Assembly (NCBI GenBank): GCA_025526915.1
Contig: JAHLKH010000239.1
Location: 1 to 34,258, forward strand
Direction: 5' to 3'
Source of the DNA: Entophlyctis helioformis
Taxonomy: Eukaryota; Chytridiomycota; Chytridiomycetes; Chytridiales; Chytriomycetaceae
DNA length: 34,258 bases
Part shown: positions 3,380-26,265 of the stretch, in pieces
Layout: each line of letters starts with the position of its first letter
How positions within the stretch are numbered: position 1 is the stretch's first letter
Notes under the pieces: generated by a model
Seen by the model: the letters and a program-made list of their open reading frames with translations, nothing else
What the model was told of the DNA's origin: nothing
Databases searched by the model: none
Program-made: the position numbers and the translations under genes

Positions 3380-6188
3380 TCAAGCAGCGAGCCAGTCGGC
3401 GGAAAAGGCGTCCAGCCAGGCTCGCGAGCCGTTGTTGGGAGCTGCCTCGACGCCAATCAGCTTGGCAAGCATCTGGTACACCTCGGTGTTGGCAAACGAT
3501 GGAATGCGCGCCGTCCCGTCCAGCGGGCGCTTGAAGGCACTTCCGTGCGCAAGGAAGAGTGCCTGCATCTCGGCATCCGAGTTGTTGTATCCATGCATGC
3601 CCTTTGGGAACGGACGGATGCTGCGGATCAAACTCGCGGCGGCTCGGCGCAATAGACCAGTCCTGCCCATCACATGCCGGTCAGCGGTCTCCTGTCCCAA
3701 CCGCAACAGCAGAAACACGGCGTGGCAGTCTCTCATTTACAGGATCTGCCACCACTAAGATGGGTGCGATGCGATCAGACTGCTGGAAGTGGTATTCGCT
3801 TGGCACCTGGGATCGCAGGAACGTCTTAAAGTGGCCGTGCGCGCTTGCACCGTCCGCCAGTTGCTTCAGCACAGCCTCTGCTTGGCTCGATCGGTTAGTG
3901 ACTTTGTGACAACGACCATGCTGGCTGCAGAGTGCAGATGGATGGATGGATGGATGGATGGATGGATGGATGGATGGATGGATGGATGGATGGATGGATG
4001 GATGGATGGATGGATGGATGGATGGATGGATGGATGGATGGATGGATGGATGGATGGATGGATGGATGGATGGATGGATGGATGGATGGATGGATGGATG
4101 GATGGATGGATGGATGGATGGATGGATGGATGGATGGATGGATGGATGGATGGATGGATGGATGGATGGATGGATGGATGGATGGATGGATGGATGGATG
4201 GATGGATGGATGGATGGATGGATGCACATACCCTGAGTCACAGTCGTGGGATACACGCTCCACACTGGCCCGTTGACCAGAGTGCGGATCGAGTCCAGGT
4301 TGACATAGTCGTCCAAGAATATGACACGGTCTGTGGATGTGTCGGCCATGCCATGGTCACTGACAATGATCAGATTGACCAGATCGGCAATGTGGCGCGC
4401 TTCCAGAAGCCGGTGCAGCCGGCCAATGGCATTGTCCACGCGCTGCAGTGCGCTTGCGACCAGGTCCGAGTGTATGCCGCCCGTGTGCCCTGCACCGTCG
4501 ACATCCGAAATGTACAGCGACAGGAACGACGGACGCTGGCTTCGCGGGAGATCCAGCCACGAGACAACGTGGTCAATCTTTTCGTCCAGCGACATGCTTC
4601 CGTTGTACTTGAGCCAGTGAGTCGGACGCACTCCCTGGCATGGCACGGGTGAGATGGATCAAGCAGCCAGGCAGTGGATGCTGGTGCCACCCACTCTGAT
4701 CTCGGCTTCCGAGCCAGGCCACATGCACGTGGCCGCACGCTTTCCTTGCTTGACGGCAGTCACCCAGATCTGCAGCGCAATGCCAACGCCACTGTGTTAG
4801 CCACACACCCCGTTGACCGCCGCCCTCGGATCGCCGTGCAGCCCTCGGATCGCCAGACAGCCCTCGTACGCCAGACAGCGCGACACGACTTACAGGCTCG
4901 CCGCCATTCCACCAGTAGCCATCCGCGTTCATCTCTGGATTGGTGTACTCAAAGGCGCTCTTGCGGATGGGATCGTAGTACGTGTTCCCCACGACGCCGT
5001 GCGACTCGGGGTATAATCCCGTTACGATCGTGTAGTGGTTTGGGAACGTGACCGACGGAAAGGCTGGCTGCATGCCGACCGCACGCACGCCCTGCCGCGC
5101 CAGCCGGTTCAAGTTGGGGGTCAAGCCGCGGTCCAGGTAGTCTGGCCTGAAGCCATCCAGCGACACCAGAATGACCGTGTGGCGCAGCTCGTTGAGCAGC
5201 GAGCGTGTGTCGTCGGACGGCCAGCCACCAGGCCGTGCCAGCAATGCGACGCAGAGGACGGCAACCAGCAGCACAGCGGCGCAGATGCCAACCGCCGACC
5301 GGCTCAGACACGAGCGCAACACGGTGCTTGCTGGAGACGCTGCCCGCTTGCGACGGACGCGACGGTCTTGCTGCGATGGCTGTGCCGCGCGGCTGCCAAG
5401 CGAGATCCAGCCCGATGCCCACCCGCCCTGTCGCGGCTGCATCCAGCCCGAGGCACCGTTGCTGTACATGTAGTCGCCCTCTCCCTCGTATTCTCCCTCA
5501 TAGTCGCCCTGTGCGTCGTCGCCATCGTCACCATCGTCGCCGTCGCCGTCGTAATCGCCGCTGCCGTGCTGATCGTCGCGGTGTGTCCAGAGCGAGTCCT
5601 TGGCGAGCCTGTGGTGGTGGATGCCCAGAGAGGCGGGCCGTTGCCGCGGCGTCGACATGGGCGTGAGCGTGCCGTCCAGCGACCGCAGGCGTCGGTGGTG
5701 CGTGTGGGCGACGTAAGGAAAGCAGCCGATCGAGGCCGGGTCAGAAGCCAGACAGCCCCCGCCAGCCGCGATGGAGTCTGGCGCACACGTCACTCGCCCG
5801 CCCACTTACATGCTTGCCTTGCCCGGCGTCGCTGCATGCGCCAGCGCTGCACGTTGAGGGCGACCGTCTGCTCGCCGCTCGTGTGGCCAAACGCACCGTA
5901 GCCACCGTAGCCACTGTAGCTGTCATAGCCGCTATTGCCGCCATAGCTGTCACCGACGCCGAGCAGGTGCGGATGTGCGCCGTGCTGCTGGCCGTCGTCG
6001 GCAACCGTCGTCGCCGACAGCGCAAACAGCATCTCCCGCGAGAGGATGGTGGGCGATGGCGAGCGGTGCGGCCGGCTGCCGGGCGACAGCTCGATAAAGT
6101 GCCCTTCGTCGCCGTCGGGCTCGGGCAGAGCGCCAGGCCCGCGCGGCCCGCCTGCTGCTGAGCCAGGGCCGGCGGCTGGTGGCGTCAT
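3380..6188 (-). CDS. Ectonucleotide pyrophosphatase/phosphodiesterase (ENPP family), type II membrane protein
   Basis: Hydrolyses phosphodiester/pyrophosphate bonds of nucleotides outside the cytosol (family knowledge). Proposed exons, from the start: 6188-5810, 5777-4894, 4769-4695, 4634-4232, 3877-3741, 3691-3380; all phases agree and give about 729 residues. Seen: a long acidic Gly/Asp-rich N-terminus, one hydrophobic anchor near residues 288-307, then the alkaline-phosphatase-fold domain. Metal-site Asp lies in [11 protein letters not shown], nucleophile Thr in [21 protein letters not shown], and further ligands in DVDGAGH, IVSDHGM and [24 protein letters not shown] is restored exactly by the 60-bp intron 4635-4694. 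Introns are 32, 124, 60, 354 and 49 bp; the 354-bp one carries the GATG microsatellite. The start is uncertain: a TATAAAAG 156 bp upstream supports 6188, but that needs a 32-nt intron, and an in-frame ATG in exon 2 near 5660 is the alternative. Confidence 0.88.
3937..4224. repeat. Perfect (GATG)72 microsatellite inside an ENPP intron
   Basis: 288 bp made of 72 uninterrupted gatg units. It sits in the proposed intron 3878-4231 of the phosphodiesterase gene. A 4-bp unit gives a 12-bp codon period with no stop on either strand, so spurious frames (MDGW and HPSI repeats) run through it. Confidence 0.97.
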
Positions 6189-14240: not shown

Positions 14241-16223
14241 CTACTCGTCACGGCTCTCCAAAAGGTTCCGTAGGCGCTCCAGCTCTTGCCGGACGTCGTC
14301 GTAGCGCTGCTTGACCTCTTCCTTCCAGTTTCTAATCTCTGCACGCGCCAAATCGCCAGGTGGCTCCATGGCCAGCAGCATAGAGTTGATTCGGAAAAGG
14401 TCGAGCTCCATGATGGCACGACGCGCCTTGAATTCTTGGCGCTGGATCAGGCCCATGACGTCATTGCTCTTGGGAAGCAGAGAATGCAGCGCAGGCAGCA
14501 TAGGAGACGGCGAGACAGACATGGCCAATGACATGGCCGACAATGGCGTTGCCGGTTGCTGCTGATTGAGGTAGGGTGGCGGCGGTGGAGGCGGCGGCGG
14601 AGGAGGAGATGAGGCTGTAGGCAGCGCTGAAGGTTCCAGCATGTCAAGGCCCAGATCTGGATGACTGCTCTCTGCAGCAACGTGTCCCATGTCAAATGCC
14701 GAGTCTGATGCTGAGGACGAAAAGGGTGCACCAGATCCGACTACAGCGAAAAGACTGCGGTTGGCACGCTGGACTTCGGTCCACGTCTTGAGGCGCTGGA
14801 TTTCCAGTTCGGCCAAGACCTGCTTGGTGCGCAATTCCTGGTCCTGGAGAGCAAGGAGCTTGGCATGAAGCGAATTGCCCGAATTGGACGATGTGCTTGC
14901 GCGTGAGCGTGGCGACACATCAGCGTCCAAGCCGCCAGCAAGGCCCGTGGACACGGATTGGAGGCCCTCGTCTGCGTCTTGTTCTGCCGAGCGGTCCGCA
15001 CCGTGACATGCCGGCCTGAGCCTTGCTGCATCAGCCAAATCGCCGGTGGCGCCAACAGCAATAATGTCCAGGGCAGACGTCTCTGGCCTGTGCTTTGGCA
15101 AATCAAGTGTTGCATTGGCTGGCAGCTCGTTGGCTGAGGCGTCCGCGTGCAGCACCTGCCCTCCGGGAAACGCAAGCGGCATGGTCGAGGATGCCGACCC
15201 TGGCGCGTCGTCCATGTTGCCGCCTGCGGCCCCAGAGAAGGAAGACAGATCGGCCATGTGCATGGATGGGGACAAGTCTCCAAACGACGACATGGATGCC
15301 AGAGAAAGTGAGAGCGAGGATGCCGACGGCATGGTGGCCATGATCGAATCTGCGAACGTGGCAGAGGTTGGAGATGCTTGGTGACGGCCTCGCTTAAGCT
15401 GATCCAAGACGACTTGCTCAAGCGTAAAGTCAGAGTGCTTGCGAAAGACGGCATGCATGGGCTCGAAATACTTGCAGACGCTCTTGAGTTGCGACATTGT
15501 GAGCTGCTCGCGTTTGCGTGCTGAGCGGGTCGCCTCTTTAAGAAGACCGACGGCCTCGTTGTACGACTTGATGAGCGTGTCTGTTTTGTTCTTGATCTGG
15601 ACCGGCGACTTGTTGCCGAGGATTGCGGCGATCTCGCGGTACGAATGTGTCTTGAATCTGGACGACCACCTCGCAAAGTTGTCATTGTCGCTCCACCAGG
15701 TGATCAGCGTGAGGATCTCGTCCTCTGTCCATTTGGCGTAGAACCGGCCCTGGCCCTGGCCTTGTGCTTGTGCTTGCACATGGGTTTGCGACTGCTGCTG
15801 GTGCGGCTGCATGATGGCCCCCTGGCCTATATGCCGAAATGGGGAGTCAACGACGGGCGACGTGCTGGCAGCGTGTGCATCCGCACCAGATCCAACCGAG
15901 GCGACCGCGGGTGTGGCGGCGGCCGCGGCAGCAATGGCTGAAAAGGGCATCTGGAGCGCCAGCTGCTGGTGGATGTGGTACAGCGGGTTGGTGGGCGGCA
16001 ACAGCGACTGGGCCATGTTGGACAGGCCGAGCGTCGAGGAGGATCCCTGCTGCTGCTGCTGCTGCGCTATGAGACCATTGGTGTTGCTGTCGATAAAGTC
16101 GTCTGGCATGAAGCCCAGCATCTGGTCCTCGAACGTGTGGCCGTACGGACTAGAGGCCAGAACATTGGCGCTGCTTGCTGACGAGGCCATGGAATGCAAA
16201 CTCGGCTGTTGCTGTAGCTGTAA

Positions 16224-16254
<31 letters not shown>

Positions 16255-16340
16255 TGTTGCTGCTGCTGCTGCTGGAGAGCAGCTATTGCTGCAACAATGC
16301 CGGCCTTGCCATCCATTGCGGCAGTTGACGACACCTTCAT
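14241..16340 (-). CDS. Myb/SANT-like DNA-binding protein with polyglutamine
   Basis: Probable transcription factor or chromatin protein; targets unknown. Single exon of about 699 residues from the ATG at 16340 (the frame is open to 16496, but the earlier Met lies in less protein-like sequence). Seen: polyglutamine near the N-terminus (16225-16274), then a Myb/SANT-like trihelical domain of W-W-R spacing (WTEDEILTLITWWSDNDNFARW, then REIAAILGNKSPVQIKNK). A Ser/Ala-rich middle follows, with a proline run before YLNQQQ and a C-terminal charged helical region (RNWKEEVKQRYDDVRQELER). A single Myb repeat followed by a coiled coil resembles fungal Myb/SANT-like proteins. No frame break is seen. Confidence 0.72.
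16225..16274. repeat. CTG/TTG run, polyglutamine on the minus strand
   Basis: Nearly pure ctg with a few ttg units encodes the N-terminal glutamine run of the Myb-like protein. Confidence 0.85.
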
Positions 16341-16541
16341 TTTTTGGCCGATATTGATACAATTACCAAGGATTTTGGAGTTAAATTCGACCCAAGAGGC
16401 GACGGATGCAAGCAAGCACATCACACGATGCAAGGTTCGAGTCAGCAACGAGCATGCCACGACAGGCGGGCGAGGCACATCCAACAAGCATCTCACCTTC
16501 TATTGAAGTGACCCGTTAGGTCGATCGGGAGGTTCCCCGAT
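16341..16541 (-). other. Fanzor 3' flank with a terminal hairpin; candidate guide-RNA region
   Basis: 201 bp between the Fanzor stop and the Myb-like start. On the minus strand ATCGGG-GAACCT-CCCGAT (16541-16524) forms a 6-bp stem with a 6-base loop directly after the stop codon at 16542-16544. TnpB and Fanzor guide RNAs usually come from the 3' end of the gene and the adjoining element end (established knowledge), so this is where a guide RNA would be expected. No expression evidence exists in the sequence, and the Myb-like promoter must share the space. Confidence 0.3.
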
Positions 16542-19500
16542 TCAAAGTGTTGTTGTTGGCAGACATGGCAGCATGATCTGATCCCATGAGGCCACATGCG
16601 ACTTGAAGGGAAGCAGATCGGGTGACGGAGGCTGCTGGACGACAGGCTGATCAGGCGGTGTCACGAGCAGCATGATGTGATGTTGTGCACGCCACTGGAT
16701 GGCAGTATGCATTGCCGCGATGCTTTTGAGGTACTCTTGCGTGGCTGGATTGCTGTCAGGTGGCGTGTGCGTCAAGTAGAGCGGTCGTTGTCCATAGAGC
16801 AGATGCCACAGTGCGACCATCCCGATGTTGGTGGCTCCAAGCACGTCGCGGTGGTAGACGGTCGTGCAGTCTGTGCACTCGTAGCGTCGCAGGTTGGTGC
16901 GGTTCTCGTATGGGATCCTCTGCTTGCACTGCGGGCACATCTGGCTGGTCAGGTTCTCGTTGCAGCGGTAGATCTGTGTGTGTGTGTGTGTGTGTGTGCA
17001 GGATAGTGTGTCAGTTGGTGCACAGATGGATGGATGAATGGATGGACAGCGTGGCATCAGACGCACATAGGCATATCCAGACGACCGCAGATGCCTGATG
17101 AGAAACCTCTCAAACACAGCGTGCCGGCCACCTTGGCCTGTAAAGTCGATGCCAAATGCCCACACAACGGGAATGTCCTTCTCTGGGTTGCTGACAGGGC
17201 GGCCTTGAGATGCACGAGATGCGCGCTTGCCAGTGGTCGATCCTGCCAGCTTCATGATGCCCTCAAGAGCGTTTCCGCGAATAGACGTGCTGTTGCTGCG
17301 CTTGGTGAACCGCTTGGCCTTGACCTTCTGTGGAATGTCATGCCATGCCGTTCAGTGCAATCAGCAGGCAATCAAGCAGCATGGCGGCTGTGTCAATGGG
17401 CATCCAGAAACAGAGAAAACGTACCCGTGCATTCAGGAATGGCGTGCAGTACGCACGGCAGCGCAGATCCCAAAAGGCTCTCTCGCCAGGCTTGACGTTT
17501 GGATCGGCATGCTTTGCTGTCTTGAATGCAATGGCCGCCTGGATGTCGGCTGCCTTGGCATATCGATTGTTGAGCCTGGCACAGGAGGCAGGCACTGTGA
17601 GTTGATCAGGTCAAGAGTGCGCGTGGCAGAGTCATTGCATGCATACCAGTCCTGATAGATGCGCTCAGCATGTGCCATGCCAGAGGAGAGCACGTAGTTG
17701 GACTCGAGGGTATAGGTGAAAGTTGCCAGATCGACCAGCATGCTGGACGCGCCATACATGTACCGCTCGCCCCAATCAATGCCAACAATACGCACAAACC
17801 GGTAGCCCTTGTTGGTGAACAACTTGTTGGCTTTGACAATGTTGAGCATTCGCTGCGAGGCGTAGAAGCTGAGCTTGCCCTGTCATGCCATGACATGAGT
17901 GAGGAATGTGCAATGCATGTGCACCAATGCACGAGGTTGGCATGCAAGTGGCTTACAGGATTGGTCGCTTTTGGCTTGGTGGCTGATGGGTCGGCAGGAT
18001 CGGCAGCTGTGGATGGCATGTCAGTTGGTGTGGACAACAAGTGTGCGTCTGGATTGGCACAGCAACTCACATTCGCCATCCAAGTGATCGTGCCCATCAT
18101 GCCCATCATGCCCATCATGCCCATCGTCATCATCATCATCATCATCATCATCATCAGGCATGCCATCAGCAAGGCTGGGCTGCTCGCCTAAAGATGCCAT
18201 GTTGGAGCATGCAGATCAAGGCGGCAGTCAGAACCAATGTGTGCACCAAAGCATTCAAGCACGCCACATACTGCGAGGCGACTCTGGACGGTCTGTGCGA
18301 TAGTCCAGCGCCAATTGAAAGATGCTGTATCCGTCCGTCCGGAAGCTGCCCACCGCGGTCGGTTTGCTTGGACTTGCAGGAGGAAGACCATCGATCACGG
18401 CGTCTATAAACTCCTGGCGCTCCTTGCCAACCAGACCCTCGTGCTCAGCCAGTTGCATCGCATCAGCAATGACTGCGTCATTTGCTTGGACCTGCTCAAA
18501 CACCTCCTTGTCGGCCTCGTCTGGCGTCTGATAGCGGCCTTTCTTGGGGCGGAGGCTGGGAAGGAGTATGTTGAGGATACAGAGCTCCTTGCCATTGCTG
18601 AACGCCTTCTTGATCGTCCTGTTGGATGACGCGAGGCCCAAGCTGGCTTTTTGGTAGTCTTGGATAAAAGTGGAGTGTTAGCATCATATCATACAAACAT
18701 GGCATAAACAGGCAGTGCGACCGACTGAGTACAGCAAGGAGCTGCAGTCGCAAGTATGCCAAAGCAGCACTTTGCTCGCCACGGATGCGATCATCACTAC
18801 TCCCCATCACCGCCCAAAAGAGCGTTGTCTCGGTGATGAGGATGAAGGGATCGCGGCTGGCTGCTTGCGGGCACAGCTTGTTTGTCGTGCCAGCAAGCTT
18901 GGACAGCTCGTAAAAGATCACAATCTCTGACCGAGACACATCAGGCACAAGCATCTTGAGCTCATGCAGCTCTTGCGGGACTGTATCAATACCGCTGTCC
19001 TCAGTGGCCAAGGAAGAGCTGGATGCCGCGTCCTTGGTGGTGGTGGCCTTCCTGCCCCGTCGCTTCTTGGGCCTGCCGCCTTTGTTGGCTGACGAAGAGG
19101 TGGACCGGCCCCGCTTGAGACTTGAGGTGGGAGGAGCAGTATCCAAAGTGGCCAGCGGTGTGGCGTCCTCGATCGCTGGTGGTGTAGCGTCCTTGGCAGC
19201 CTTGGCAGCAGCAGCCTTGGCGGCCTTGGCAGCCTTGGCGGTCTTGAAAAGTGCCGCAATCCACACTCTCACATCCTCAATGGATGCACTGGGCATCATC
19301 TTGAGGGCCGCAGTGACGGCCAGCTCAGACTGGCTAGAGATGTAGTGCCGCGCGAGCATGCCACACACATCCCTGGCCAGATTGCTGTAAATGTCATGCC
19401 TTGCATCCGCGCAAAGGCTGCCATCAAGCCTGTAGGGCAAGACAGCCTCCATAGTGCCCGCGTGCACAGCGTCTGCCGTCTGTGCACTTGTGTGCATCAA

Positions 19501-21288
19501 GGCCGACAGCTCTGCATCTGCCTGCACCACGGCTGACAGGATCGCGTTGGCCTGGATTGTCACCGTCTGCTGCGTCGCGTCCATCATGTCGACATCCATC
19601 GTGACTGCTCGCATCGTGTCCATCTGTGCCATGTCCATCATGGCTGCTTGCCGCGCGTCTTTCTGGAACGCGTCGCTGTGTGCCGTGGCCGCCTGCTGCA
19701 TTGCATCAATCAGTGACATGTCCATCAGCATTGTGCACGTCTGCATCATGTCCATCTGTACCGTGTCATCCTGCAGCTTGGCTGCATTGGTTTGCAGCAC
19801 CCTCCGCGTCCAGGTGCGATGGATCGTCATTTGTATGACTGTTACAATCCAGGAGTGGATGGCATGCTTGGTCGCTTGCGGCTGCACCATCATGCTGTCC
19901 GCCAGGACATAGCCAAGATGGCGCAGCAGCATGTCCACAGCACCGCCTCCACCTGATATACTGCTGGTGAGGGCCATAAGCAGCTCATTTGCTGATGGAA
20001 CTGCTGCTGCTGGTGGTGGTGGTGGCGGCTGGATGGCTGAAGACGAAGCGCCAGTGCTGCTGGCTGCTGTTGGCTGATTGTGCACATCATGCTCGTCCTG
20101 GATGCATGGGTCGTCAGGCTGCACAGGCAGCTCGGGCTCGTCGTGCTCGTCCTGCTCGTCCTGATCGTCCTGCTCGTCGTGGTCCTCGTGCTCGTCGACG
20201 TCGCCATGGATGTTGGGTTGCTTGGCAATCTTGGCAGTATCAAAGGCGCAGATCTTGAGAGCCGTGTCACTCTCGAGAGTCACCAAGCTGCCATAGCGAG
20301 GGATCTTTGTGTCGCTGCTGTGCGGGCCGGTGCCGTACATGTGCCAAACAATGATGCCCTGCTTGTGAATGCATCCACCTGACAAGAGCGTCGCGCTCTC
20401 GTCCTCATCAAAGTCCTCGGGGTTGACATAGTAATACTGCGTCATCTTGCCTTGGCTTGCCTCCAGGACACAGTACTCCAGAGGCAGAGGCGCGTCTGCA
20501 TTCAGCTTGACCAGATCCGCGACCATGGCGCCAATCAAGGCAAGGGCAGCACGCCACAAGCCGGCCGTGAAATAGTAGACTGTGAGGGTGGTGTCATGGC
20601 TGATTGAACTGGGTGTCTGCTCGGCGAGTGGTGTCTTGGTTTGGGGCCCAAAAAACTTGGTGTTTGCGAGATCGCATGACTGCATCTCCTGCATACCACA
20701 CAAGTCAGCATCCACAAAGCCAAGCAAACAGAGCAGCATGCCGATCAAACCCCATACCGCCATTTTGACAATCTGCTCAGGGCGGCTGTGTGCATTGCCT
20801 TTAGGTCTTGGCTGTCCTTTGGGATAGGTGGCCGCGGCAAGTGTCATGACTGGCATCGCAATCATGCGGCCGAGCTTTGCAAGCTTCTGACGAGTTGCCA
20901 CTCGACTGCCAGCAACCCATCTGTGGCATGACACACGTGTCAGCAAGCACATTCAAGGCACATGACATGCCATATGTCGCATACGCCTTCTTCTTGCCAA
21001 CAGTTCCAGCCTTGCGAGCATGCAGGCCTGACTTCTTCTTGTTCTCTCTGATGATCTCCTGTAGTGTGACCTTCTCTTTTTTCTTGGCACGCTCCTTTGT
21101 GTGTGCAGCCCGCTTGGCTGCCGTGAATTGGAATGGCGCCTGTGACGGTTGGATGCAGCATCAGGCGTCCATTCCAAGTGCACCAAACACAGCCATAATC
21201 GCCAATAGTGCACCAAACTCACCGTCGTCTCAGTGTCAGCAAGATCGCCAACAGGAAAGGTGTAACGGATGCCGCCGCAGTCCCGTGG
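16542..21288 (-). CDS. Fanzor (eukaryotic TnpB homologue, RuvC RNA-guided nuclease family)
   Basis: Fanzors are RNA-guided DNA nucleases carried by eukaryotic mobile elements (known). Exons: 21139-20985, 20920-20758, 20688-18726, 18658-18272, 18187-18071, 18006-17957, 17879-17647, 17575-17425, 17327-17067, 16973-16542; phases close to 1303 codons. Core seen: SFRTDGYSIFQLAL, RuvC-I VGIDWGERYMYGAS (Asp at 17775-17777), RuvC-II Glu in CNENLTSQMCPQC (16956-16958), zinc ribbon CPQC...CTDC, RuvC-III YHRDVLGATNI (Asp at 16845-16847). All three acidic residues are present. The long N-terminal part (about 760 residues) is disordered and acidic, with an AT-hook-like GRPKKRRGRK, and could be a fused or separate gene. 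A further exon 21288-21223 fits in phase but begins after an in-frame TGA with no ATG, so the 5' end is missing or unresolved. Confidence 0.85.
16976..16998. repeat. (TG)n run at a Fanzor intron acceptor
   Basis: The dinucleotide run sits just before the AG acceptor of intron 16974-17066 and acts as its CA-type 3' tract on the minus strand. Confidence 0.75.
18099..18156. repeat. CAT/CCCATCATG repeats coding an Asp/Gly-His-Asp tract
   Basis: The minus strand reads about ten Asp codons followed by four Gly-His-Asp units within the Fanzor exon 18187-18071. This acidic, histidine-bearing insert lies between the TDGYS region and RuvC-I. Confidence 0.7.
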
Positions 21289-21298
21289 TCACGTGACC
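21259..21298 (+). mobile_element. Solo or degraded element terminus matching the XPG-element inverted repeat
   Basis: ggtgtaacggatgc (21259-21272) is identical to the outer 14 bp of the 22214-24840 element (there from 22215). As in that element it is followed by a ggtcacgtga motif, here as ggtcacgtgacc at 21287-21298. The in-frame TGA that closes the Fanzor-linked exon lies inside this motif. It may be the edge of a related insertion that removed the 5' part of the gene. Confidence 0.45.
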
Positions 21299-21353
21299 TG
21301 CTGGCATTGATCTGGACGCGCCTCGCCCGGACTTGGCTTGGCCCTGTTGTTGT

Positions 21354-21471
21354 AGTTGTATCCAGCCGTAAGCCTGTATACTCACTGCCCTCTGCCACCA
21401 GGTCGGTGCCTGAGTCTCAATGAAGTTGTATCCAGCCGTAAGCCTGTATACTCACTGCCCTCTGCCACCAG
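21354..21471. repeat. 48-bp direct repeat, period 70 bp
   Basis: Identical 48-bp blocks at 21354-21401 and 21424-21471 with a 22-bp spacer. Each block ends in ctgccaccag on the plus strand and reads ctggtggcag...gtgagtatac on the minus strand, that is, an exon end plus a donor-like site. Confidence 0.9.
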
Positions 21472-21539
21472 ACGGCCAGCCGCTCTCGACGAGGACAGTT
21501 ACAAAAGGTCTTGGAGCATGCCAGTGCTGCGAAAATGTT

Positions 21540-22213
21540 GTTGGACAACTGTGGTGGCTTGGGCAGCGGTGGAGGAGGACCAACCTGTGGAGTGGGATGG
21601 TGAGCAATCGCGCCAAATCATTCCATGCACATGCAGTCAGTGGAAGTCGAGACGCACTGCACTTTGCTCAATGATGGACTGCAGCAGGGCGACGGCCTTT
21701 TGGCGCTGATTGATGAGTGTCGGAGGTTTGGCGTTTTCTGGATGTGGACCTATGGGGTGCTCCAGGAAATACAGCCAGGCTGAGGCCTTGTCGTGGATGG
21801 CAGCGACAATGGATCGCGGTGCAACTCGCGTGGTCATCCTGCCGTGGTACTTGACTTTCTGCGTCTCTGTGTCCAGTACTATGCATTCAACACAAATGGA
21901 TCTGTGAGTGGATGCTGTTGAATCATTTCAATGCAATCAACACCTACTGGGAGTGGATGTATGCCGGTGGGATGCGCATGGCGGATTGGCAATCTTGTCC
22001 AGCTGCGTCTGCATTCTCATTGCTGCATTCTGTCCAGAAGCAATGGATCAAGTCAGCCGCATTCAAAATCAGCAAATGCACGTGGTGTGATAGCAACAGC
22101 ATGCATTCAAGCCATGCAAACATACCAATGCGCGATAGATTGGCTCATCTGCTGGGAGGAGCTTAAAAATGCCATCTGCTCCAAGAAACTGCTCGCCGGC
22201 AATCTGCAGCAGC
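21540..22213 (-). CDS. Coding fragments of an unknown gene, left of the XPG element
   Basis: Three minus-strand stretches look like exons. 22213-22126 (LLQIAGEQFLGADGIFKLLP, ending at gtatgt) begins directly at the element edge. 21901-21658 (VLDTETQKVKYHGRMTTRV to INQRQKAVALLQSIIEQ) lies between tcacag and gtgcgt. 21584 downward (GPPPPLPKPPQLSNNIFAAL) starts after ccacag, in phase with the previous one. I do not recognise a family. A plus-strand frame around 21912-22166 rich in Trp is also open and could be the real one. The fragments may be the 5' half of the Fanzor locus or a separate gene; no start codon was found. Confidence 0.3.
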
Positions 22214-22559
22214 TGGTGTAACGGATGCTCGGTCGCGGTCACGTGATCCACGTGACCCACGTGACCGGACAGACATTGTCGGGCCGCACTGGCCGCTCTG
22301 GTTTCCCCCGTTCTTGCAGTCGTCTGCCCGCCCTTCCTCGCGTGCACACATACTGACCCGAGAGACCAGGTCTGTGCTGCCTCCCAATGAAGAGTCGTCT
22401 GCCCGCCCTTCCTCGCGTGCACACATACTGACCCGAGAGACCAGGTCTGTGCTGCCTCCCAATGAAGAGTCGTCTGCCCGCCCTTCCTCGCGTGCACACA
22501 TACTGACCCGAGAGACCAGCCGGCAAGTCCGTCTGGCGGCCCAGTACTACAGCTGGGCA
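22214..22559 (+). repeat. Left terminal inverted repeat
   Basis: Runs from the outer terminus through CACGTG at 22240, 22249 and 22258 (9-bp spacing), then about 2.7 units of a 75-bp tandem repeat starting near 22317, then gcccagtactacagctgggc at the inner edge, which is itself palindromic. It is inverted relative to 24570-24840. Confidence 0.88.
22317..22521 (+). repeat. 75-bp tandem sub-repeats within the left arm
   Basis: The unit begins gtcgtctgcccgcccttcct and ends cccaatgaaga. Two full units and a truncated third are present here; the right arm has one full unit and a truncated one. Copy-number difference alone explains the 75-bp length difference of the arms. Confidence 0.88.
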
Positions 22560-24443
22560 CTTGCTGCTTTGCAGATGGCCGCCAGGATGTTGCGATGCGT
22601 GACAGCATTGTAGCTACTCGCAAGGCGGTTGACTGTGCACCTGATGATGGTGTCGAGTGCCACATGGCAACCCTTCACCTCATCAAATGCAGCATCCAAC
22701 CGCCTGTTGCCAACAGTGCTGCTGACAAGCTGCTCAACCCTGCCACGCGTCAAGTGGACAAGCTGGACGCCGTTCTCAGCCTGCTGCTGCTGCTGTGCAG
22801 TATGGCTCAAGCAGCATCCATCCATCAAGCACCTGCACAATAACAAGATCGCAGCATCAGAAACAGAATCTCAGTGTCAGTTTTGCCAGAAACGCCACAG
22901 ATTCCATGCATTCATACTTCATTCCAACAGATGGAGTCGTGTTGACATCCATGTGGTTGGTGTGGTTGGCTTGAGGCTCAGATCTGTGCAAGGCATTCAA
23001 TTGCGTCAATGCCATCATGTCCATGACATCCTTCAAGAATAAACATACCTCGCGACGATCGGTGCTGTGATTGCACCAGCAGAGGCCCCAACATCATTCC
23101 GGTTGACAAAGACTTCAAATGCGTTCTTGAATGACTGCACGAGGCTCTCATCACCATTCTTGACCAGCTCCTCGATGTACGCGTCCTTGATGGTGTCCAT
23201 GAACGCCTTGGCCTCGTTAGGAGTCTCGAGTATTGCGCAGAGCTGGGCCGCCTTGATGTTGAGCTCTTCAACCTTGGCATCAAACCGCGCATTGACAAAC
23301 TTGACCGCGGCGGCGAGTCCTGGCAGGGACTGCAAGCAGAATCACGCATGTAGACAAAGAATGGCATGTGAGTGATGGCAGATACTACAAAACAGGCGCG
23401 GCAACTCACCATGGTCATTGCGGCCAAAAAAGTCTGTCCTGGACAGTGCAGCGACCAGCTGGCATGCTCCAGCAAAGTCGCGCACACCCAAGACAGATGC
23501 CATGGTGGCAAGCCCACCATGGTTGTAGGATCGCATCTGCACAAGCTGCCCATGCTCCAAGTGCGTCAAAATGACCGCACAGTGCCCAGCACAATGAGCA
23601 ACCAGATCAGAGTCATTGGAGACAACGACAACTGGCTTGTCACTGTCACAAAATGGAGACTGTGAGCCATCAACTACAGCAGAAGAATGCAAGGCGATCT
23701 AACCTGGACTCGCGAACATGGCGGGCGATGCAACAGTCTGCTTCATAATCACACCAGCAGACTGTGCATCCCTTCTTTTTGCCAGCCAGCTCACTGAGGG
23801 CCACAACGATGTGCTGTTTGTCTGTCTGCGTCAACGTGTAGAACCTGTTGAGGGCATACATCTCGTCCCTGATGGCAAGCAGCAGAAGATAGTCAGCATG
23901 GCAGCCACACAGTACAGAGTAGCAAACTTACTTTGAAAGTGATCCCGTCTGCTGATACTCTTGGCGGCGGAACGCATACCGCAGGACCTTGACCACCGCA
24001 TGCAGCATCTTGAGTGCGCGGCTGTGGTGCACGATCTTTATACCTGCGTCTCCGCGGCGACCATCCACATGGAATTTGATGGTGTGGCCGTCGCCGACTG
24101 ACGCCATGAACAGCTGAAAAGCTGGCTGGACGATGTCCTTCCAGCTGTCAATGGAGTCGGGCATGCTGATGGCGGCTGTGGCGACTAGCTGCGAGAAGAA
24201 GACGCTTAGCACGTCAACGTGCAGCATCCCGCTGAAGTGGGTGGTTGCGGCTGTTGTTGTTGCGGCTGTTGCTGTTGCGGCTGTTGCAGTCTGCTGTTGC
24301 GGCGGCGGCTGTTGCAGTGGCGGCTGTTGTGGCAGCAGCTGTTGCAGCATAGCCTGCAAGACCTGGCACAGGGTCCAGGCAGCACTGTAGACACATACAG
24401 CCCTGCCTAGCTTGAGCACCCTCAACAAGCCGGCGACCGTCAT
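22547..24443 (-). CDS. XPG/FEN1-like PIN-domain nuclease carried by the element
   Basis: Structure-specific DNA nuclease superfamily (family knowledge); role here unknown. Exons 24443-23932, 23868-23718, 23659-23410, 23319-23049 and 22832-22547 join in phase to 489 residues. MTVAGLLRVLKLG resembles the MGxxGL start of XPG proteins; an ATG at 24509 would add 22 residues. A Gln/Ala/Thr-rich insert precedes MLHVDVLSVFF (first Asp), then FHVDGRRGDAGIK with HHSRALKM. XPG-I motifs are CDYEADCCIARH and VVVVSNDSDLVAH, followed by the helix-hairpin region TDFFGRNDHGLAAAVKFV. The acidic residues expected for metal binding are mostly present. The H3TH junction is restored only by using the acceptor at 23320. 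The stop codon lies inside the left inverted repeat. The last exon has no known domain. Confidence 0.78.
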
Positions 24444-24569
24444 GCTGCTGCGTCTGTATCTGCGTTTACGAGAAAAGAATCGGAGCGTCTGGCGGAGTTG
24501 AACTTTCATTGTCGACACAGACAGAGAGCGAGTGGATAGAGAGCGAGCATCCAGGCACTCGCCGTCCAC

Positions 24570-24840
24570 TGCCCAACTGTAGTACTGGGCCGCCAGACGG
24601 ACTTGCCGGCTGGTCTCTCGGGTCAGTATGTGTGCACGCGAGGAAGGGCGGGCAGACGACTCTTCATTGGGAGGCAGCACAGACCTGGTCTCTCGGGTCA
24701 GTATGTGTGCACGCGAGGAAGGGCGGGCAGACGACTGCAAGAACGGGGGAAACCAGAGCGGCCAGTGCGGCCCGACAATGTCTGTCCGGTCACGTGGGTC
24801 ACGTGGATCACGTGACCGCGACCGAGCATCCGTTACACCA
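24570..24840 (-). repeat. Right terminal inverted repeat
   Basis: Inverted copy of the left arm with one 75-bp unit fewer, the same three CACGTG sites at 9-bp spacing (about 24791-24814) and the same outer end gcatccgttacacca. Confidence 0.88.
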
Positions 24841-26076
24841 ACAGCCATCAAGGGAGCAGCGAGCACAGCCAACAGCCAGGCGTTCAAGATGCGGTCATGT
24901 GTTGCTGGCACAGTCATTGATGTGAATGCCACTCAGTGCGCAGCTCGACATGCACTGTGCAGTGTCACTTTGCGTGTCATGAGCTGCATTGCAGCGAGCC
25001 CCTCTCCAAGTGTCGTCTTCTCAGTCAATGCCCCATTGCATCCATCAATCGTCCTGATATGTGTCTGCATTGTGACCCAGTGCGATGCAGTTGGTGTTGC
25101 CTGACTGGCCAGCTAGTCCGTGGACAGGTTGGCCGTTGACGCACTGCCTGCATCGCCGCTCTGCTCTGGATCGTCCTTGTCAACAAGCACAGTGCATGCA
25201 AGACTGGGATCGTCAGGGTCTTCGCCATTATCATCGTCGTTGTGGTTGTTGAATGAATCAAGAGTGCTTGGTCTGTCTGGCCACTCCAATTGCTGCTCAG
25301 TGGGTCGCATCCAAGATGCCATCGCACCAAGTGCAATGTGGCCAGACACGCCTGCCAGCACTCGCGTCCTCCTCACCAATCTCGTCTGGATCAGTGTCGT
25401 CGAGTGTGCTGCTCGTTGAGTGCGCTGCCACTGTCGAGTTTGGCGTCCAAGTCGGCATGCCAATCCAGCTATCCAGCAAGCAGTTCCTGCAGCCAACTCC
25501 AAGGATCGGTCCATTGAGCACATCTCAGTGGCTGCTCATCTGCTGCTGCTGCATCCCATGTCGCAGTCGGAATGCACCAGGCAGCTCAGTCCTGCGATGC
25601 CAACGCTCTCGCTGTCCTCTTGAACAACAGCCAGATCGCCCTGTTCACGGCCGTCTTGCCGACGTCCCTTGCTGTTTGGAGCCATCAGACATGCACGCAG
25701 TCAGTGCCAAGACCACACAGACACGGCCGTCAGACTGCTGTGCCGTCATCGTCAACAGGCAATGGAGCATGCCTGGACAGACAGCGAGTCAACGCACCCG
25801 CTTGCCTGTCTGCAGCCTGCCTTCTGTCCGCCCGCCTTGTTGGGCACGCCTCTCAGACGGCCACGACCACGCTGCTCTGCTGCATGGCCTGCTGCATGGC
25901 CTGCTGCATGCCACCTTGAGCAGTGAGCCTCACAGTCTCCCCTGAAGGACTCGTCCAGCAAGCGAGTGTTGTCCCATATCCGTGCTGTCGCCTGCGTCGT
26001 CGCCGTCGTCGTCGTTTGGCTCGTTGTTGCTTGTGTGCAGTTGGGCGGCAAGTGCAGCAGCGTCTGGATCTGGCAT
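24841..26076 (-). CDS. Coding fragments of an unknown acidic protein, right of the XPG element
   Basis: An ATG at 26076 opens MPDPDAAALAAQLHTSNN followed by an Asp-rich stretch up to about 25933. Further protein-like minus-strand pieces follow: GRRQDGREQGDLAVVQEDSE (about 25672), STLDDTDPDEIGEED (about 25390), EQQLEWPDRPSTLDSFNNHN (about 25280), TEKTTLGEGLAAMQLMTRKV (about 25000) and HDRILNAWLLAVLAAPLMAV, which runs to the element edge at 24841. Splice sites between them are not settled. No family is recognised. The fragments end exactly where the inverted-repeat element begins, and similar fragments resume at 22213, so this may be the 5' part of an interrupted gene. Confidence 0.3.
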
Positions 26077-26265
26077 GGCGCGTTGCTGCTGTGCTCGCAT
26101 CGCGCAGTGTCTGCACCGAGCAAGGGCTCTCTAGATCGACCAATCACAGCGATTCCACCAGGGGTAATGGTATGAGAACCGGGCCGCGCTTCAGCAACAG
26201 AGGCGTCTGCGCTGGGTCTGGCTGGCCCGACATTCAGATGCGGTGGGAAGTTGGCCGCACCGAGT

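Follow-up and report, generated by a model that had tools for sequence, protein, structure and literature searches.

The contig JAHLKH010000239.1 of the chytrid Entophlyctis helioformis carries, on its minus strand, the core of a Fanzor-type nuclease behind a long stretch of further coding sequence. What part Fanzors, eukaryotic relatives of TnpB and Cas12, play in the life of transposons is not settled, and the locus raises the question of what the upstream sequence encodes and whether it belongs to the same protein. The window we analysed is this entire contig (34,258 bases; C239 in our numbering), compared with the rest of the draft genome (29.57 Mb in 482 contigs). We propose, with a probability of about 0.65, that the window holds an interrupted copy of a family of ~9 kb transposons with terminal inverted repeats (TIRs), in which a single 18-exon frame likely encodes a fusion of ~1,985 residues between a FEN1/XPG-like and a Fanzor-like nuclease. 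Judged from its sequence, the family is a Fanzor-bearing transposon, real and new in its variant, whose biochemistry is predicted.

Ends and copies of the element

The window copy, including three nested mini-transposons, occupies positions 16346–26185 (9.8 kb), with edges taken from copy comparison and with its gene on the minus strand. The left TIR (GGCCGATATTGATACAATTACC in this copy) lies at 16346–16367 and the right TIR (GGTAATGGTATGAGAACCGGGCC) at 26163–26185. The inverted ends are ~22 bp long and related to each other, GGCCCGATATTCATACAATTACC at one edge and the complement of GGTAATGGTATGAGAACCGGGCC at the other. Among the 15 subfamily A copies fetched, the left edge lies at 16342–16349 in 14 and at 16365 in the copy on contig C58; the right edge is 26185. 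When one mismatch was allowed, the TIR pattern occurred 98 times in forward and 102 times in reverse orientation in the genome, and its reversed control did not occur at all.

Flanks were sought for 12 elements and both were obtained for 11, the element on C198 lacking one readable end. An 8-bp target duplication (at least 7 of 8 positions matching) flanks seven of these 11 elements, compared with 0 of 110 mismatched flank pairs. The elements without it are those on C60, C140 and C69 (6/8 match) and the window copy. Contig C26 contains the same neighbourhood without an element; the two are 99% identical across 4.8 kb of left and 3.8 kb of right flank. Near the junction the identity is 92–98% and some 25–30 bases differ, so that the duplication of the window copy itself is not visible. 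Terminal inverted repeats and a target duplication of fixed length, the window copy excepted, are the hallmarks of a cut-and-paste DNA transposon.

The C-terminal exons were scored in 40 copies including that of the window, and the other copies are 87–95% identical to it in DNA sequence. Across the genome, 150 TNB domains were scored above the Pfam cut-off among 205 candidates, and three of these contain an internal stop. Repetition of the core on the scale of a family is far beyond chance. By comparison, 42 full or partial Fz loci have been reported for S. punctatus (PMC10432273). A search of viral contigs, in which 60 pattern stretches were examined, yielded no relative.

These features leave the source of mobility to be considered. 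In the ORFs scanned, which for the copies were some ORFs only, no transposase was hit besides a sub-threshold zinc-ribbon match within TNB. There is consequently a serious possibility, compatible with the explanation we favour, that the element is a non-autonomous passenger: an outside transposase would recognise its GGCCCG ends, and the nuclease fusion would be cargo or a selfish retention device. Also in its favour, a Fanzor element of Spizellomyces has been described that bears inverted repeats and just one ORF (PMC10432273). Weighing on the other side, the same gene is found in subfamilies A, C, D and E, and in B as far as its contig extends, and its frame is constrained, which implies a selected function. 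Furthermore, a few of the ~200 ends were followed inward, and none of these led to a partner element that shares the ends and carries a transposase. The IS4-type Fanzor elements of Ectocarpus and its virus (PMC3627910) offer a partial parallel: one of them, ESvi-1B, is flanked by target duplications of 8 bp, and Fanzor1 genes occur in the group. They differ in that no IS4 transposase was found here and in that host and ends are different, the ends not having been compared letter by letter.

The right-end block of the element (24838–26162) is without convincing coding signal. It is 92% identical to its counterparts in subfamilies B and C, against about 70–77% for the coding parts of these subfamilies, and in some copies (C168, and C25 twice) it lies beside unrelated sequence. 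Recombination or conversion of element ends would be our guess at the origin of this pattern. A 230-residue ORF within the block (25253–25945, plus strand) was rejected as a protein gene: its frame ratios are 0.40–1.15, and four of five copies have frame-breaking indels.

Individual copies show further rearrangements. The C69 element contains an inserted retroelement-like ORF of 1,240 residues (L071:1114-4836, minus strand; gag, protease and reverse transcriptase recognised by eye) and thereby reaches 13.9 kb. A 985-bp derivative at G000:C35:164494-165478 retains the two ends and, of the gene, just the last exons, much as an internal deletion would leave it. The elements on C60, C36 and C122 (L020, L022 and L024) share a left flank and hence a duplicated or repeated site; C60 is one of those without a target duplication.

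The 18-exon frame

Between an ATG at 24509 and a stop codon at 16542, one frame of 18 exons on the minus strand, about 1,985 residues in length, is present in other copies. From the N to the C terminus, it would encode a predicted FEN1/XPG-like 5′-nuclease domain, a long linker and a Fanzor-like nuclease. Exon 1 (23932–24509) contains the start codon, a low-complexity arm and the first nuclease strands (HVD at 24221 and HVDG at 24071). Exon 2 (23704–23868), with a YEAD motif at 23747, was delimited by copy comparison and NCBI proteins, and exon 4 (23049–23319) by copy comparison and an NCBI protein. Between them, exon 3 (23410–23642) has two motifs of the FEN1/XPG-like domain, NDSD (23617) and RTDFF (23440). 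The first part of exon 5 (22550–22832) reaches a stop codon at the edge of a mini-transposon (22217–22549, flanking repeat CAGCTGG), which separates it from the second part (22126–22209); in the other copies the two parts adjoin with a gap of 0. Exon 8 is likewise divided, into 21504–21584 and 21223–21255, by a mini-transposon of 242 bp (21262–21503, flanking repeat AAAGGT). The second part of exon 5 and both parts of exon 8 were placed by copy comparison. Comparison of copies and of subfamilies defines exons 6 (21944–22029), 7 (21658–21901), 9 (20985–21139, lysine-rich) and 10 (20758–20920).

Exon 11 (18722–20688) encodes the long linker. Exon 12 (18272–18642) includes at 18338 the TDG motif of the Fanzor1 WED domain (PMC10711439). 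Copy comparison placed exon 13 (18071–18187, Asp/His-rich), exon 14 (17957–18006), exon 16 (17425–17575) and exon 17 (17067–17327). Exon 15 (17647–17879) carries RuvC-I as GIDWGERY. Exon 18 (16542–16973), recognised by Pfam and by motifs, contains the catalytic Glu, the zinc ribbon, the RuvC-III Asp and the stop codon.

Both exon inserts introduce in-frame stops. The exon 5 insert is missing from all 14 other copies that have both exon halves. The exon 8 insert is missing from 15 of 16 such copies, and the remaining one, on C58, aligns poorly at the site because another insertion starts close by. The protein of the window copy would thus end after about 520 residues, at the stop of the exon 5 insert. 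The first-pass annotation of this DNA had described an intact-looking gene with nine introns, a 5′ end at 21288 and about 760 residues ahead of the core. That 5′ end falls within the exon 8 mini-transposon, the model has 10 introns in the span then considered and 17 in the whole gene, and about 1,450 residues precede the last 540. A third mini-transposon (24578–24837, placed by copy comparison) lies 5′ of the start codon. The three mini-transposons of the window carry GTGTAACGGATGC at one end, and two of them have 75-bp tandem units; relatives sit within other elements (C262, C58 and C69).

The window's exons were compared with 18 other copies or fragments, with indels bridged and with 11–18 copies per exon. 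In-frame stops were confined to exons 11 and 18 of the mosaic copy on C40 (one each), exon 18 of the copy on C293 (one) and a spurious edge alignment of C249 (one). The shifted frames, pooled over the same copies, hold hundreds of stops. Most copies have frame-breaking indels, many of a single base, the worst being C60, C293 and C249 and the least affected C237, C75 and C198; their cause may be decay or assembly error.

The splice sites are similarly conserved. Thirteen of the 17 introns are GT-AG in every copy scored (3–15 copies each), and three more in 12/13, 13/14 and 13/15 copies. The intron between exons 11 and 12 needed another donor: the first choice held in only two of 15 copies and was replaced by GTCGCA at 18721, which all 16 sequences compared contain. 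Divergence of exon 2 in several A copies limited the scoring of its two flanking introns to three copies; NCBI proteins, P0004 for one, read through the diverged exon and show the same motifs in it.

Comparison of the model frame with subfamilies B and C gave omega values of 0.17–0.42 in exons 1 to the first part of exon 5, and of 0.30–0.87 from there to exon 9, with 2.09 in one short exon. Omega is 0.38 in exon 11 (B only), 0.33–0.63 in exons 12–14 (1.65 in one exon of 50 nt), 0.40–0.46 in exon 15 and 0.58–1.00 in exons 16–18 (C only, at low divergence). These values show clear constraint on the two nuclease ends, as far as exon 15, and weaker constraint on the linker and the final exons. At the protein level, subfamilies B and C match parts of exons 5–9, subfamily D matches exons 5, 7, 9 and 10, with E 0.09 for exon 7, and subfamily E matches exons 5, 7 and 9. 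Because of these matches, together with the frame and the splice sites, we take the linker to be coding.

An unlikely alternative, also raised in the first-pass annotation, is that two adjacent genes lie in the same direction, one FEN1-like (24509 to about 21.6 kb) and the other Fanzor-like, with a start of its own in exons 9–11. Several points weigh against a single gene. NCBI annotates a separate 520-residue protein, P0003, on the window contig; between 21.0 and 22.2 kb the codon signal in sliding windows is weak; omega is 0.30–0.87, and once 2.09, from the second part of exon 5 to exon 9; and exons 10–11 contain ATG codons. However, P0003 is the 5′ coding part of the window's own gene, and it stops at the stop codon on the edge of the insert missing from all 14 other copies with both exon halves. 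It matches most of exon 1 and departs from model exons 1–5 by one additional small exon, before the first part of exon 5, and by one additional splice within exon 1. (Another NCBI protein, P0006, is a chimeric annotation and was excluded from one comparison.) Moreover, from the second part of exon 5 to exon 10 the model frame has no stop in the 12–16 copies counted per exon, every junction from there to exon 11 is GT-AG in all 11–15 copies scored, and parts of exons 5–10 are matched at the protein level in B, C, D and E. Frame, splice sites and protein matches therefore do not support a division into two genes.

The two ends of the frame are also linked across the genome. For 25 of 38 exon 3 nuclease matches, picked among the matches listed, one of the 150 scored TNB domains lies 5.7–13 kb downstream on the same strand; none lies upstream, and two lie on the opposite strand. 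The 13 unlinked matches include C24, C60 and C122, where core exons do align, because the TNB list is incomplete. A divergent class of loci, 45–48% identical to P0003, matches straight across the boundary of exons 1 and 2, as if the intron were absent (G000:C298:21443, C125:42069, C50:75685, C130:38109, C1:136947, C53:37000 and C13:8913); each has a TNB domain ~6 kb downstream.

Nuclease-like domains at both ends

The joined minus-strand exons match Pfam Cas12f1-like_TNB with E 6.4e-11 and 42.7 bits, against a cut-off of 26.3. This profile placement of the spliced C-terminal part bears out the TnpB/Fanzor-type RuvC core, with its Asp, Glu and Asp residues and four-cysteine ribbon, that had been read from the sequence by eye. 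The motifs are IDWG at 17780, the Glu of ENLTS at 16958, CPQC at 16937, CTDC at 16877 and HRD at 16853. The published superfamily pattern is D-X(125,275)-[TS][TS]-X-X-C4 zinc finger-X(5,50)-RD (PMC3627910), and the core matches it with spacings of 188 and 5. In Fanzors an alternative catalytic Glu stands six residues ahead of the first CxxC (PMC10711439), as it does here (E-NLTSQM-CPQC), a position that fits published descriptions of the Fanzor active site (PMC11423790, PMC10711439). The TDG motif in the WED domain marks Fanzor1 (PMC10711439); the window has RTDG, and TDG is likewise found in C176 and in P0001 and P0002, two database proteins of E. helioformis that match the core (contigs C5 and C307).

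Two features set the core apart from Fanzors. A DPG at RuvC-I is near exclusive to Fanzors (PMC10711439), whereas the window, P0001, P0002 and subfamilies D and E have DWG, and the 183 residues between the RuvC-I motif and the Glu are a further departure. For these reasons we call the core 'Fanzor-like'. With Fanzor1 elements (PMC3627910, PMC10432273) the family shares the core within its published spacing, the displaced Glu, the TDG motif, high copy number and the inverted-repeat structure of an element that yielded no transposase. It differs from them by the DWG and by the FEN1/XPG-like domain in frame, and SpuFz1, with 638 residues in a single-ORF locus of roughly 2.1 kb (PMC10432273), is far smaller than this gene of about 1,985 residues and 18 exons in a ~9 kb element. 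A sequence search of PDB with the core alone gave just two TNB-only matches (E 0.14 and 0.94), and with the core as a profile none. Homologue searches of 5.8 billion proteins, restricted to candidates that share words with the query, returned E. helioformis proteins only (two and four), and the long-protein query found none. RNA-guided DNA cleavage by the Fanzor-like part is a prediction.

At the other end, the fused N-terminal part looks like a 5′ nuclease of FEN1/XPG type rather than a DNA-targeting domain. The earlier suggestion of a fused extension thus stands as far as the frame is concerned, and fails as to a simple acidic, AT-hook-bearing arm or a domain for DNA targeting. The strand-helix order predicted in a low-confidence structural model and the Foldseek ranking of that model both favour the FEN1/XPG/Exo1 superfamily (Pfam XPG_I_2, 5_3_exonuc_N), as does the acid pattern HVD, HVDG, EAD, NDSD and a late Asp. 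In five subfamily sequences (39–77% identical to the first), six acids are invariant and one is kept in 4/5; we take these to be the metal-binding positions of FEN1/XPG 5′ nucleases. The late Asp, D224 here, is typical of FEN1-like enzymes. Unlike known members of the superfamily, the domain is fused to an RNA-guided nuclease within a transposon. XPG_I_2 matches all five sequences, the first with 17.3 bits against a curated cut-off of 24.2, and because of this shortfall we use the name 'FEN1/XPG-like'. In PDB, the nuclease part alone had no sequence match, and as a profile it matched ribosomal proteins only (E 1.5 and up).

Several observations would suit a catalytically dead PIN/NYN-type fold that binds RNA or structured DNA: there are weak profile matches to NYN_YacP too, subfamily D has HVNG at the second acid, and the structural model submitted to Foldseek is of low confidence. 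We nevertheless consider a dead fold improbable, given that six acids, D224 among them, are unchanged in sequences otherwise so far apart.

Proposed role, linker and minor features

Between the stop codon and the left end lies a conserved non-coding block (16347–16541, minus strand), a candidate scaffold for an omega RNA whose flank would be the guide. Over its ~195 nt, mean column identity is 83% in 38 distinct aligned copies; C58 gave no left block for the extraction. In 13 copies the match to the window is continuous from 16348 to an end at 16550–16559, just inside the stop codon, and four of these have one additional short match in exon 18. A near-invariant hairpin, ATCGGG-n-CCCGAT, was seen by eye and forms in the window's own fold, and is absent from the consensus fold of the alignment; a second hairpin, also seen by eye, has a loop of variable length. 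Rfam gave no match at gathering score. The fold energy is no better than that of shuffled sequences (z -0.14), a single predicted pair has changes on both sides, and a terminal transposase binding site would explain the conservation equally well. An RNA role for the block is inferred.

The fusion may act as follows. The scaffold of the guide RNA would be formed by the 3′ end of the transcript, between stop codon and transposon end, and the host DNA next to it would supply the guide. The Fanzor part could then cut an unoccupied or just-vacated site, where the tethered FEN1-like domain might trim 5′ ends or flaps at the break and steer repair toward copying the element back. Movement itself would depend on a transposase supplied from elsewhere or on another activity of the fusion protein. 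Most likely, as we infer at every step, the protein acts where the moving element has left a break, or on the empty site, and repair thereby brings the element back. That the transposon is instead self-contained, with a guide from its own end directing the Fanzor cut and the FEN1-like half processing strands so that the two jointly replace a transposase, strikes us as a long shot.

A single chain that joins a Fanzor-like nuclease with a 5′ flap/exonuclease-like domain would draw attention to end processing after the cut and to the choice of repair, and would offer a natural two-nuclease architecture. No report of such a fusion was found in the open-access literature, a search that did not cover most subscription papers and preprints. 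PMC11071296 uses 'Fanzor flap endonuclease homologs' as a passing phrase for viral genes, in a passage that describes no fusion. With 150 scored TNB domains in 29.6 Mb, E. helioformis would be a rich system for Fanzor function within elements.

The linker encoded by exon 11 consists of a weakly conserved stretch predicted to be beta-rich, acidic and helical low-complexity parts, and a basic patch; its fold prediction has a mean pLDDT of 41.1 and no Foldseek match under E 1. The string GRPKKRRGRK in the patch had been noted as AT-hook-like. At the same site subfamily B has TKPKRQRRRK, C40 GGVAKKVRVGK, subfamily C TATKKPCGER and D a gap, and we read it as a basic patch only. Although the core and its zinc ribbon are real, the picture of an intact Fanzor whose long extension is acidic and bears an AT-hook is hardly tenable: its start falls inside an insert missing from 15 of 16 other copies, the string is unconserved, and exons 5 and 8 contain in-frame stops.

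Outside the element, an ORF at 14241–16499 (minus strand, 752 residues) has a Myb/SANT-like domain (PF13837, 9e-7) and faces the element with its 5′ side; its neighbourhood recurs, without the element, on contig C26. A GATG microsatellite of 72 perfect units occupies positions 3937–4224 of the window.

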